Assembly: GCA_003647765.1 (NCBI GenBank)
Contig: QMNM01000043.1
Span: forward strand, 1 to 8,752
Reading direction: 5' to 3'
DNA: 8,752 nucleotides
Source of the DNA: Candidatus Cloacimonadota bacterium
GTDB lineage: Bacteria; Cloacimonadota; Cloacimonadia; JGIOTU-2; B8-G9
Part shown: piece by piece, positions 4,765 through 8,752 of the stretch
How positions within the stretch are numbered: position 1 is the stretch's first letter
Layout of the letters: every line of letters starts with the position of its first letter
The notes under the pieces: generated by a model
Seen by the model: the letters and a program-made list of their open reading frames with translations, nothing else
Databases searched by the model: none
What the model was told of the DNA's origin: nothing
Position numbers and translations under genes: made by a program

Positions 4765-4838
4765 ACCGTGAAACCCGACTCGAGTTCAAAGAACCCGAGT
4801 CGGGTTTCTGCGAAAAAAAATCCCGTAGGGATGAAATA
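4765..4838 (+). repeat. Family 2 hairpin element, copy 1
   Basis: The 74-nt element starts ACCGTG. A 17-bp inverted repeat (4771-4787/4791-4807; one A-C mismatch; loop AAA) is followed by CTGCG, eight A residues, and the mini-hairpin ATCCC-GTA-GGGAT (4820-4832) with GAAATA. The copy at 8675-8747 is in the same orientation and differs by two substitutions and one A. No U-tract follows the large stem on either strand, so it is a REP-like dispersed element and not a terminator. Confidence 0.85.
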
Positions 4839-4869
4839 CTCATAGCAATAATTACAATAGCAAATCATA

Positions 4870-4960: not shown

Positions 4961-6172
4961 ATGAATAGAATTTTATGCATAAATAATATTGATGATATAA
5001 AAAGAGAATTATCAAGAATCGGTGTGTCTACTCAGGGAATTGAGGCAATGTCGCTTAAATCCACTGGCATAGCATTAAAATTGAAAAATATACGAATTGG
5101 AGCTGCAAATATCATTAAGCAAAATATGTTAAGTATTGGTGGAGATGCAGCTGTTTCAAAGGGTGTAGTTAATGGCAAAAAAGAAATTTCTGATGTAATT
5201 ATATTAGGCAATATCTCTGAATTACAAAAGCTGATTGATAAATTGTCTTATCAGGATATATTTGAAATACCTGAAATACGAAAAAACATTAAGCAATTGC
5301 TCAATCTCTATTATTATCCTAAACATAACGAATTGAATTGTCGGGGATATAAGTTTTCTTTGGATAAGCCATTATTGATGGGGATTCTAAATATAACTCC
5401 TGACTCTTTTTATGATGGCAATAAGTATCTAAACAAAGAGAAAGCATTGACGCACTGTGAGGATATGATAAAACAAGGTGTTGATATTATTGATATTGGT
5501 GGAGAGTCAACTCGTCCTGGAGCAGAATCAGTGTCTATTACACAAGAAATTGATAGAGTAATGCCAATTTTGGAACAGATTGTTAAAAATTTCAATGTGC
5601 CTGTTTCCATTGATACTTATAAATCAGAAGTAGCGAAAATAGCATTGGAAATAGGTGCTAATATGGTAAATGACATAAGTGCTTTGACTTTTGATGAAAA
5701 TATGGGAAAAATTCTTGCATCTTATGTTGATGTGCCTGTTGTGTTAATGCATATAAAAGGCACTCCAAAAAATATGCAGATTAATCCATCATACAAGGAT
5801 GTAATTGAAGAGATAATGGAATTTTTAGATAATGCTATAAATAGAGCAAAGCAATTTGGCATAAAAGATGAAAATATCATTATTGACCCAGGAATCGGCT
5901 TTGGCAAACGATTACAAGATAATATAACTATTATAAAAAAACTCGCTGAATTTAAACCGTTAGACAAACCAATTTTAGTTGGCACTTCTCGGAAAAGCTT
6001 TATCGGACATATTCTCAATTTAGAATTAGAAAAGAGATTAACAGGAACTATTGCGGCAAATTTACTATGCCTCATAAATGGTGCAAATATTCTCCGTGTT
6101 CATGATATTACTCCTCATAGACATTTGATTGATTTCTGGCAATATTTTACGAATTATAATATTACCAATTAG
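4961..6172 (+). CDS. folP: Dihydropteroate synthase, long form with N-terminal extension
   Basis: The enzyme condenses 6-hydroxymethyl-7,8-dihydropterin diphosphate with p-aminobenzoate to give 7,8-dihydropteroate in folate synthesis. The TIM-barrel motifs are all visible: MGILNITPDSFYDG (140-153), DIGGESTRPGA (178-188), SIDTYK (216-221), NDISA (237-241), LMH (262-264), IDPGIGFGK (308-316), GTSRKSFIG (341-349) and RVHD (379-382). The protein has 403 residues, whereas the usual enzyme is about 270-290. The first 125 or so form an extra domain containing AANIIKQNMLSIGGDAAV (48-65); I recall similar long forms in several anaerobic bacteria, so this is probably native and not a fusion artefact. 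The ATG at 4961 is the first possible in frame (stop at 4952-4954). There is no Shine-Dalgarno at normal distance (GAGAGGG is about 20 nt away), unlike its neighbours. The stop is TAG. Other folate genes are not in the window. Confidence 0.93.
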   Translation: MNRILCINNIDDIKRELSRIGVSTQGIEAMSLKSTGIALKLKNIRIGAANIIKQNMLSIGGDAAVSKGVVNGKKEISDVIILGNISELQKLIDKLSYQDIFEIPEIRKNIKQLLNLYYYPKHNELNCRGYKFSLDKPLLMGILNITPDSFYDGNKYLNKEKALTHCEDMIKQGVDIIDIGGESTRPGAESVSITQEIDRVMPILEQIVKNFNVPVSIDTYKSEVAKIALEIGANMVNDISALTFDENMGKILASYVDVPVVLMHIKGTPKNMQINPSYKDVIEEIMEFLDNAINRAKQFGIKDENIIIDPGIGFGKRLQDNITIIKKLAEFKPLDKPILVGTSRKSFIGHILNLELEKRLTGTIAANLLCLINGANILRVHDITPHRHLIDFWQYFTNYNITN

Positions 6173-7292: not shown

Positions 7293-7438
7293 GCGTAATG
7301 CGTAGAGCGTACGACGCCAAGAGTATTTATCTCTCTGTGTCCATACAATCTTTTCAATCTTTATGAATCTTTCAATCTTTATAATCTTCTCTATGTCCTC
7401 TGTGTCTCTGTGGTAAATACTTCGTGAACTTCGTGGCT
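7293..7438 (-). repeat. Family 1 composite repeat, copy B (inverted relative to copy A)
   Basis: Read on the minus strand, the order is GCCACGAAGTTCACGAAG, then TTACCACAGAGACACAGAG (7416-7398, identical to 1151-1169), then an extra 9-mer array, then the 34-nt segment (7345-7312, 31 of 34 identical to 1186-1219), then a short heptamer array (7311-7293). It occupies much of the 247-nt gap between trpS and the carbamoyltransferase gene. No gene is supported in that gap. Confidence 0.75.
7346..7390 (+). repeat. Five tandem 9-mers inside copy B
   Basis: Units are CAATCTTTT, CAATCTTTA, TGAATCTTT, CAATCTTTA, TAATCTTCT: five in exactly 45 nt without spacers. The array sits precisely at the junction between the CACAGAG part and the 34-nt part, where copy A has only a few bases. 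This makes it an insertion or local expansion in copy B. Confidence 0.75.
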
Positions 7439-7445
7439 ATATTTT

Positions 7446-7490
7446 CTCTCTGTGTCTCTATGGCAACTTTCTTCGTGTTTCTTCTTGGCT
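7446..7490 (-). repeat. Second, diverged family 1 unit next to copy B
   Basis: The plus strand reads CTCTCTGTGTCTCTATGGCA and continues through TTCGTG and CTTCTTGGCT. It aligns by eye with CTCTGTGTCTCTGTGG...CTTCGTGGCT at 7397-7438, so two diverged units lie in tandem. The unit ends 13 nt before the carbamoyltransferase ribosome binding site. Confidence 0.6.
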
Positions 7491-7519
7491 AAAATTGAAT
7501 TATAAGGAGGCTATAAAAA

Positions 7520-8560
7520 ATGAGAGCAAATTTCAAAGGAAGAGATTTTCTCAGTTTATTGGACTTTTCAAAAGAGGAGTTTGAGTATATTTTGGATGTA
7601 GCTTCTGATTTGAAAAGGCGGAATGCAATTGGAGAGTTGCATAATCACATTTTACCAGCAAAATCACTTTATATGATTTTCTATAATCAATCTCTACGGA
7701 CAAGAAACTCATTTGAGTCAGGTATGACACAACTTGGTGGTCATGCACACTACTTGGCATCTGACAAGATATATACGCCTGCAATTGAAGGTGAAGAAAA
7801 AGCATATTCTACAGAGAGAGTATCAGATGTTGCCAGAACTTTATCTCGGTTTGGACATGCTATTGCAATAAGAATGTATGGTCCTCCGACTAACTGGATT
7901 TATGGTAAAGCACATTCATACATAAGAGAATTTGCTAAATGGGCTGATATTCCAGTAATAAATATGGAATGCGACAAATATCATCCTTGTCAAGCTGGTG
8001 CTGATATGCTGACAATCAAAGAGAAATTAGGTGGATTCAAAGGTAAAAAATTTGTGATGAGCTGGGCTTATTCTCCAAGCTATGAAAAGCCATTAAGCGT
8101 TCCTCAAAGTGCAATTATTGCAGCTACAAAACTTGGAATGGATGTAGTTCAAGTGCAGCCACATGGCTTTGAACTTGATGACAAAATTATTTATGCCTGT
8201 AAAGATATGGCAGAACAGAATGCTAGTAAGTTTGAAATTATGTACGATATGGAAGAGGCGTTCAAGGATGCTGATGTAGTGTATCCAAAATGTTGGGGTG
8301 CAAAAAAAGAATTTGATAATCTTGGCAAAGGTGATGATATAGCAATGCGTAAGTTATTTGAGAAAAATAAAAATTGGATTTGTAATCAGGACATATTAAG
8401 CCTAGCTAAAAAAAATGTCCTATATATGCATTGTCTACCAGCTGATCGTGGATTTGAAGTAACTGATGATGTAATAGATGGACCGAACTCTGTTGTTTTT
8501 GACGAGGCAGAGAATCGTCTTCATTTTCAAAAAGCAGTGATGGCTTTGATTATGAGATAA
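7520..8560 (+). CDS. Knotted carbamoyltransferase (acetyl-/succinylornithine carbamoyltransferase-YgeW group), substrate uncertain
   Basis: The 346-residue protein transfers a carbamoyl group from carbamoyl phosphate to an amine. The carbamoyl-phosphate site is visible as SLRTR (58-62), HPCQ (155-158) and HCLP (304-307). SLRTR resembles SMRTR/SLRTR of acetyl- and succinylornithine enzymes, not the STRTR of standard ornithine or aspartate enzymes. The proline-rich WAYSPSYEKPLSVPQ (182-196) corresponds to the loop that makes the knotted fold and is almost that of E. coli YgeW. KCWGA (257-261) stands where ornithine carbamoyltransferase has its SMG ornithine-binding motif, while the C-terminal ENRLHFQKA is ornithine-enzyme-like. 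By my alignment from memory, Thr98 replaces Glu92 of Xanthomonas acetylornithine carbamoyltransferase, and Glu313 replaces its Lys302. An arginine-synthesis role is the default guess. AAGGAGG lies 9 nt before ATG. Confidence 0.85.
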   Translation: MRANFKGRDFLSLLDFSKEEFEYILDVASDLKRRNAIGELHNHILPAKSLYMIFYNQSLRTRNSFESGMTQLGGHAHYLASDKIYTPAIEGEEKAYSTERVSDVARTLSRFGHAIAIRMYGPPTNWIYGKAHSYIREFAKWADIPVINMECDKYHPCQAGADMLTIKEKLGGFKGKKFVMSWAYSPSYEKPLSVPQSAIIAATKLGMDVVQVQPHGFELDDKIIYACKDMAEQNASKFEIMYDMEEAFKDADVVYPKCWGAKKEFDNLGKGDDIAMRKLFEKNKNWICNQDILSLAKKNVLYMHCLPADRGFEVTDDVIDGPNSVVFDEAENRLHFQKAVMALIMR

Positions 8561-8674: not shown

Positions 8675-8747
8675 ACCGTGAAACCCGACTCGAGTTCAAA
8701 GAACCCGAGTCGAGTTTCTGTGAAAAAAATCCCGTAGGGATGAAATA
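8675..8747 (+). repeat. Family 2 hairpin element, copy 2
   Basis: The 73-nt element matches 4765-4838 except for G4803 to A8713, C4811 to T8721 and one fewer A in the poly-A tract. The large inverted repeat (8681-8697/8701-8717) therefore has two mismatches instead of one. The mini-hairpin ATCCC-GTA-GGGAT (8729-8741) is unchanged. It reaches almost to the window edge and may continue in related sequence. Confidence 0.85.
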
Positions 8748-8752
8748 ATTAT

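Follow-up and report, generated by a model that had tools for sequence, protein, structure and literature searches.

The reductive urate pathway comprises XdhD-YgfM, YgfK, SsnA and HyuA, together with YgeW, which removes one ureido group by phosphorolysis, YgeY, which removes the other by hydrolysis, and YgeX (PMC12507026). Phosphorolysis of 2,3-diureidopropionate by YgeW has been published (PMC12507026). Which of the two ureido groups leaves first is stated to be open; two laboratories disagree, one assigning the 2-ureido group to YgeW and the other the 3-ureido group (PMC12990295). The second-substrate residues proposed for YgeW include Ser200, Lys203, Lys270, Asp334, Glu344, Gln98 and Gln160, while N-acetylornithine transcarbamylase (AOTC) is recognized by Glu92, Asn185 and Lys302 (PMC4581275). 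In a published survey, any PF00185 neighbour was counted as YgeW (PMC12507026).

The carbamoyltransferase gene and its position in the family

The window, which is the whole stretch of 8,752 nt analysed here, is contig C68 of a draft genome of a Cloacimonadota bacterium (1.97 Mb, 89% complete, 360 contigs). An open reading frame on the forward strand at 7520-8560 starts with ATG and encodes a protein of 346 aa without interruption, referred to here as A. A Shine-Dalgarno-like AAGGAGG was read directly at 7504-7510 (+), 9 nt 5' of the ATG. Both Pfam transcarbamylase domains were matched strongly by the 346-aa protein (136.7 and 132.1 bits), and the motifs of the superfamily were all present on the same strand, namely SLRT at the phosphate site for carbamoyl phosphate (residues 58-61; 7691-7702), HPCQ at the carbamoyl site (residues 155-158; 7982-7993), HCLP (residues 304-307; 8429-8440) and the beta-4 Arg as Arg118. 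Two sequence features of the knotted transcarbamylases were also seen, a proline-rich loop, WAYSPSYEKPLSVPQ (residues 182-196; 8063-8107, +), and an insertion after Tyr120 relative to the P. furiosus ornithine transcarbamylase (OTC).

The AlphaFold models of A and of a second carbamoyltransferase, B, were confident (pLDDT 93.4 and 94.4). The closest PDB structure to the A model was an acetylornithine transcarbamylase (Z 44.9, 1.5 Å over 324 residues), making the knotted AOTC its closest fold match, and the B model likewise matched AOTC structures best. As these matches speak to the fold and not to the substrate, they do not separate the substrate hypotheses. Among the NCBIfam models, A matched best to the N-acetylornithine model at 277.5 bits, just below the cut-off of 288; this was rejected as an identity because it lies below the cut-off and is contradicted by the tree. 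The YgeW equivalog models were both missed (174.1 bits for a cut-off of 453, and 165.9 bits for a cut-off of 500).

Genomes of the host's order and class supplied one set of relatives, and the best 80 loci of a genome-contig scan were kept as another. A maximum-likelihood tree of 109 transcarbamylase proteins was then built with acetylornithine (L152, 3kzc), succinylornithine (L148-L151, 1js1), putrescine and ornithine enzymes and E. coli YgeW as references. The window protein fell in a clade of 41 rows (clade A, support 99/99), with B proteins forming a clade of 29 rows (100/99). YgeW and the YgeW-like singletons grouped together (100/99) with clade A as their sister (91/84); the acetyl- and succinylornithine enzymes formed a separate group (100/99), and A was also placed outside the ornithine and putrescine transcarbamylases. 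The preliminary description had allowed for a substrate that is another amine or for an intermediate branch of the family, and this agrees with a clade of its own that is sister to YgeW, lies outside the acetyl- and succinylornithine enzymes and has relatives in urate-degradation clusters. A position inside the acetylornithine enzymes, or a Glu at site 98, had been named beforehand as speaking against that description, and neither was found.

Within clade A, the partner of the window protein was a protein from Eisenbacteria (96/89; 68% identical) and not one of the A proteins of other Cloacimonadota (58-61% identical), a grouping that suggests lateral transfer. A contig of Kitasatospora phosalacinea carries a 51% relative of A (L127:9986-11000) that has a long branch and lies beside a ThrC-like gene, in a region where the ORF calls are unreliable. 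A distant YgeW-like singleton labelled as ornithine carbamoyltransferase (L153:8995-9987) is plasmid-borne in the gut bacterium Pusillibacter faecalis; on this conjugative plasmid it adjoins preA and an amidohydrolase, with arcC further on.

Active-site residues of A and B

Alignment with the X. campestris acetylornithine transcarbamylase (PDB 3kzc series) bore out the earlier placement of Thr98 opposite Glu92 and of Glu313 opposite Lys302. Thr98 (7811-7813; Pro90 in succinylornithine transcarbamylase, SOTC) is indeed distinctive, though it is no quirk of one gene but a signature of the clade: the residue was Thr in 40 of the 41 clade-A rows and Ser in the other; YgeW and almost all singletons have Gly there. 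At position 313, the Lys is missing as described; YgeW, OTC and putrescine transcarbamylase (PTC) normally carry the Glu found there, so only the missing Lys is informative. The loop that had been called nearly YgeW-like proved to be exactly that, with WAYSPSYEKPLSVPQ in the window protein and WAYSPSYGKPLSVPQ in E. coli YgeW. The remark that SLRTR and the ENRLH end are unlike YgeW was also correct, as YgeW has STRT and a longer C-terminus, and the ENRLH end resembles that of OTC.

Eight residues (Tyr85, Pro87, Glu99, Tyr120, Glu150, Lys190, Pro191 and Lys257) were invariant across the 41 clade-A rows. Based on the alignment, Ser200, Lys203, Lys270, Asp334 and Glu344 of YgeW are retained in A as Ser187, Lys190, Lys257, Asp309 and Glu313, while Gln98 and Gln160 are replaced by Tyr85 and Glu150. 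The first of these replacements lies in the 80s loop at Tyr85-Thr86-Pro87 (7772-7780), where Gln98 of YgeW aligns with Tyr85 and the Trp of AOTC and SOTC aligns with Thr86. Glu150 (7967-7969) corresponds to Glu144 of AOTC. Lys257 (8288-8290; Lys252 in AOTC), a predicted carboxylate anchor, lies within YPKCWGA, at the position where OTC and PTC have the Asp of the 240s loop (DxxxSMG in OTC). The segment from Asp309 to Glu313 (8444-8458) holds the equivalents of Arg298 and Lys302 of AOTC. Clade B differs from A at several of these sites, with Ala for Glu150, Arg for both Lys190 and Lys257, a loop without prolines and mostly HPMP or HCMP replacing HCLP; its carbamoyl-phosphate residues were intact in nearly all rows.

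Gene neighbourhoods and the YgeY-YgeW slot

In the window, A is accompanied by trpS, folP, a PLP aminotransferase-like gene, sppA and ricT, none of which are purine genes. The dihydropteroate synthase (4961-6172) has ~135 N-terminal residues that gave no Pfam match at the threshold used. Near-identical intergenic stretches of ~80 nt with an internal palindrome were present at 4765-4843 and 8675-8752; the palindrome recurs on two other contigs of the genome (C150 and C219), and none of the loci retrieved from other genomes contained it. Intergenic repeats of the CACAGAGACACAGAG type were found in inverted orientation at about 1151-1241 and 7293-7466, and also on C82 and C219.

Elsewhere in the same genome, B was found on C187 (1129-2148), directly upstream of the only carbamate kinase gene. 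YgfK was over the cut-off on C41, an SsnA-like protein was just below the cut-off on C219, and a CysK-like companion was present on C295 (1271-2710). A separate OTC-like gene (L050, C150) is cut by the contig end. Mis-binning of these contigs was considered, but their GC content (31-34%) and tetranucleotide correlation with the window (0.96-0.97) argue against it. Within this 89% complete assembly of 360 contigs, the molybdenum subunit of xanthine dehydrogenase was searched for and not found, and no convincing hydantoinase match was obtained. A 'HyuA' match on C82 was left uncounted, because its pyrK/pyrD-like neighbours indicate that it is probably a dihydroorotase (pyrC). It may thus be that the host lacks the first step of the pathway or enters it elsewhere, or that the assembly does not contain these genes.

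The gene order in relatives of the host at order and class level is A-B-carbamate kinase; YgfK lies upstream, and PLP enzymes, MocA, XdhC and xanthine dehydrogenase subunits are nearby. In other Cloacimonadota, these three genes form part of a reductive urate cluster that also includes YgfK, SsnA and xanthine dehydrogenase. The nearest relatives of the window protein (L067, L079 and L115) adjoin SsnA together with UacX and/or ThrC-like and CysK-like genes, and there, too, B and carbamate kinase are on a different contig from A. Bipolaricaulota clusters hold hydantoinase, a GntR-type regulator, carbamate kinase, A and B together. In Thorarchaeota, A and B were outside any recognizable purine cluster, one genome also having carbamate kinase and a CysK-like protein; the neighbours of A and B there (penicillin-amidase-like and flavodiiron-like) gave no hint of a pathway. 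Overall, carbamate kinase was present in 42 of the 46 genomes searched compared to 2 of 14 control genomes, and by the criterion of this partner A is a catabolic-type carbamoyltransferase. Among the matches listed for named genomes of other phyla, B occurred in 34 of 39 genomes with A, leaving five A genomes without B, and in none of the 11 singleton genomes.

The canonical YgeX model had no match in 57 of 59 relatives. Beside A/B, singleton and YgeW clusters alike, a recurrent gene encodes a CysK-like PLP protein of ~489 aa (L042:4242-5708, -; C295 in the host), which is a possible substitute for the diaminopropionate ammonia-lyase (YgeX). A ThrC-like PLP protein recurs beside the same three kinds of cluster. 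In one locus, a luciferase-family protein (L089:7274-8329) is encoded directly 5' of an SsnA-like gene and A, and fits the F420-dependent reductase proposed in Chloroflexota in place of YgfK (PMC12507026).

Comparison within genera revealed that the slot after YgfK can be filled in two ways. In genus g17, one genome (G032) has the order SsnA-YgfK-YgeY-YgeW-carbamate kinase-CysK-like-xanthine dehydrogenase and is without A or B, while another (G033) has YgfK-A-B-carbamate kinase-CysK-like-ThrC-like-xanthine dehydrogenase and is without YgeY. Thus, the position after YgfK holds YgeY-YgeW in the one and A-B in the other. Similarly, in genus g29, one genome (G056) has YgfK-YgeY without A or B and another (G058) has A-B-carbamate kinase without YgeY. 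The YgeY-YgeW form was also present in three further genomes (G025, G028 and G049). For the 22 relatives with YgfK over the cut-off, 12 had A only, six had YgeY only, one had both and three had neither (Fisher p = 0.007 for A vs YgeY, shared ancestry ignored). Among the matches listed for named genomes of other phyla, YgeY was found in 10 of 11 singleton genomes compared to 13 of 34 genomes with A and B, the other 21 having no YgeY over the cut-off. Strict exclusion was nevertheless ruled out, both by these 13 genomes and by three cases in which the two modules occur together: in two Cloacimonadota loci, L103 (7487-13144) and L118 (5307-11601), YgeY, a singleton, A and B are in one cluster, giving three carbamoyltransferases, and G014 carries both the A-B and the YgeY form. 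The modules are therefore compatible.

Proposed function and comparison with known systems

The position of A in the family tree, the linkage of A, B and carbamate kinase, the replacement of YgeY-YgeW at the same slot and the intact carbamoyl-phosphate sites are directly supported. On this basis, it appears reasonably likely that A and B are a catabolic carbamoyltransferase pair of the reductive urate pathway that replaces YgeW and YgeY. SsnA and a hydantoinase would produce 2,3-diureidopropionate, from which A would take one ureido group and B the other. Both reactions would be phosphorolytic (ureido + Pi -> amine + carbamoyl phosphate). The end product would be 2,3-diaminopropionate, and carbamate kinase would form ATP from each carbamoyl phosphate. 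Since A is nearer to YgeW in both the tree and its residues, B probably takes the share of YgeY while A carries out the step of YgeW. With both ureido groups phosphorolysed, instead of one being hydrolysed as in E. coli, this version would yield one more ATP per urate than YgeW with YgeY. We infer the substrate, the direction, the assignment of ureido groups and the ATP gain from these gene contexts and residues.

A different division of labour, in which A is YgeW-like in the urate pathway and B does not perform the YgeY step, acting instead on another ureido compound or joining A in a mixed trimer with shared active sites, is unlikely but deserves consideration. The clusters in which YgeY and a singleton accompany A and B (L103 and L118), and the 13 of 34 A+B genomes that keep YgeY, are in its favour, whereas the 21 genomes without YgeY over the cut-off, and the mutual exclusion of A-B and YgeY in two genera, count against it. 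A mixed trimer would be consistent with transcarbamylase active sites spanning subunits (PMC4581275) and with the contributed 80s-loop residue being Tyr85 in A and Arg in B; however, the five A genomes without B indicate that A persists without needing B. It is rather improbable that A and B act on a different ureido substrate, such as carbamoyl-beta-alanine, allantoate or another hydantoin product, and are merely located near purine genes. The Thorarchaeota genes without neighbouring purine genes, the Bipolaricaulota clusters joining hydantoinase and a GntR-type regulator to carbamate kinase, A and B, and a host genome showing no xanthine dehydrogenase would all fit such a substrate, but the swap occurs exactly at the YgeY-YgeW place, between YgfK and carbamate kinase/CysK-like, and A keeps most of the YgeW substrate residues.

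The suggestion in the preliminary description of a different acyl-ornithine as substrate was not supported. Arg278 of SOTC, the anchor of the acyl carboxylate, is Asp309 in A, the 80s-loop Trp is missing, no arginine-biosynthesis gene adjoins A and a separate OTC-like gene is present in the genome. A biosynthetic acyl-ornithine transcarbamylase that makes arginine but prefers another acyl group could still be read from the best PDB match and from the N-acetylornithine model (277.5 bits for a cut-off of 288), but it is excluded by the tree, all of Trp77, Glu92, Asn185, Arg298 and Lys302 of AOTC are changed, and the usual partner is carbamate kinase; we regard it as highly improbable.

For the proposed A-B pair, no description of a two-carbamoyltransferase variant was found in the main texts of the openly accessible papers searched. 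There is perhaps an even chance that a widespread form of anaerobic purine degradation, extending over many uncultured bacterial phyla and Asgard archaea, conserves both ureido groups of 2,3-diureidopropionate as ATP via two dedicated and separately evolved carbamoyltransferases, with YgeY as a dispensable alternative. If so, uncultured lineages of sediment and groundwater, Asgard archaea among them, would gain more energy from fermenting purines, and a likely function would be available for proteins whose best-scoring annotation model is that of ornithine or acetylornithine carbamoyltransferase. If each ureido group has its own carbamoyltransferase, the two steps could be assayed separately with a common read-out, helping to settle the disputed order.

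Compared to its sister clade YgeW (YTCase; E. coli b2870, PDB 3q98; E. faecalis 2yfk), A has a nearly identical proline-rich loop and the same type of neighbourhood, with carbamate kinase, YgfK and SsnA. However, it is only ~33% identical, is ~50 residues shorter without the extra ends of YgeW, has an 80s loop of AOTC length with Tyr85 for Gln98, carries Glu150 for Gln160 and Thr98 for Gly, and is partnered by B where YgeW is partnered by YgeY. With the N-acetylornithine transcarbamylase of Xanthomonas (3kzc), A shares the fold, the proline-rich loop, the equivalents of Glu144 and Lys252 and the long 80s loop, but belongs to a different clade, has replaced Trp77, Glu92, Asn185, Arg298 and Lys302 (with Thr98, Pro191 and Glu313 in place of Glu92, Asn185 and Lys302) and has carbamate kinase as its partner instead of arginine genes. 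With the N-succinylornithine transcarbamylase of Bacteroides (1js1/2fg6), it shares the fold, Glu142, Lys236 and the Pro at the position of AOTC Asn185; the succinyl-holding His176, Arg178 and Arg278 are replaced by Ser185, Ser187 and Asp309, Trp75 is missing and the clade is again different. At the level of the pathway, the E. coli YgeW + YgeY and C. difficile UacY + YgeY systems (PMC12507026) have YgfK or UacX, SsnA, hydantoinase, xanthine dehydrogenase, carbamate kinase and a PLP lyase-like protein in common with the A-B clusters, in which two carbamoyltransferases occupy the place of YgeY and YgeW. For the two ureido groups, E. coli uses one carbamoyltransferase and an unrelated hydrolase, YgeY, compared to the proposed pair of A and B.
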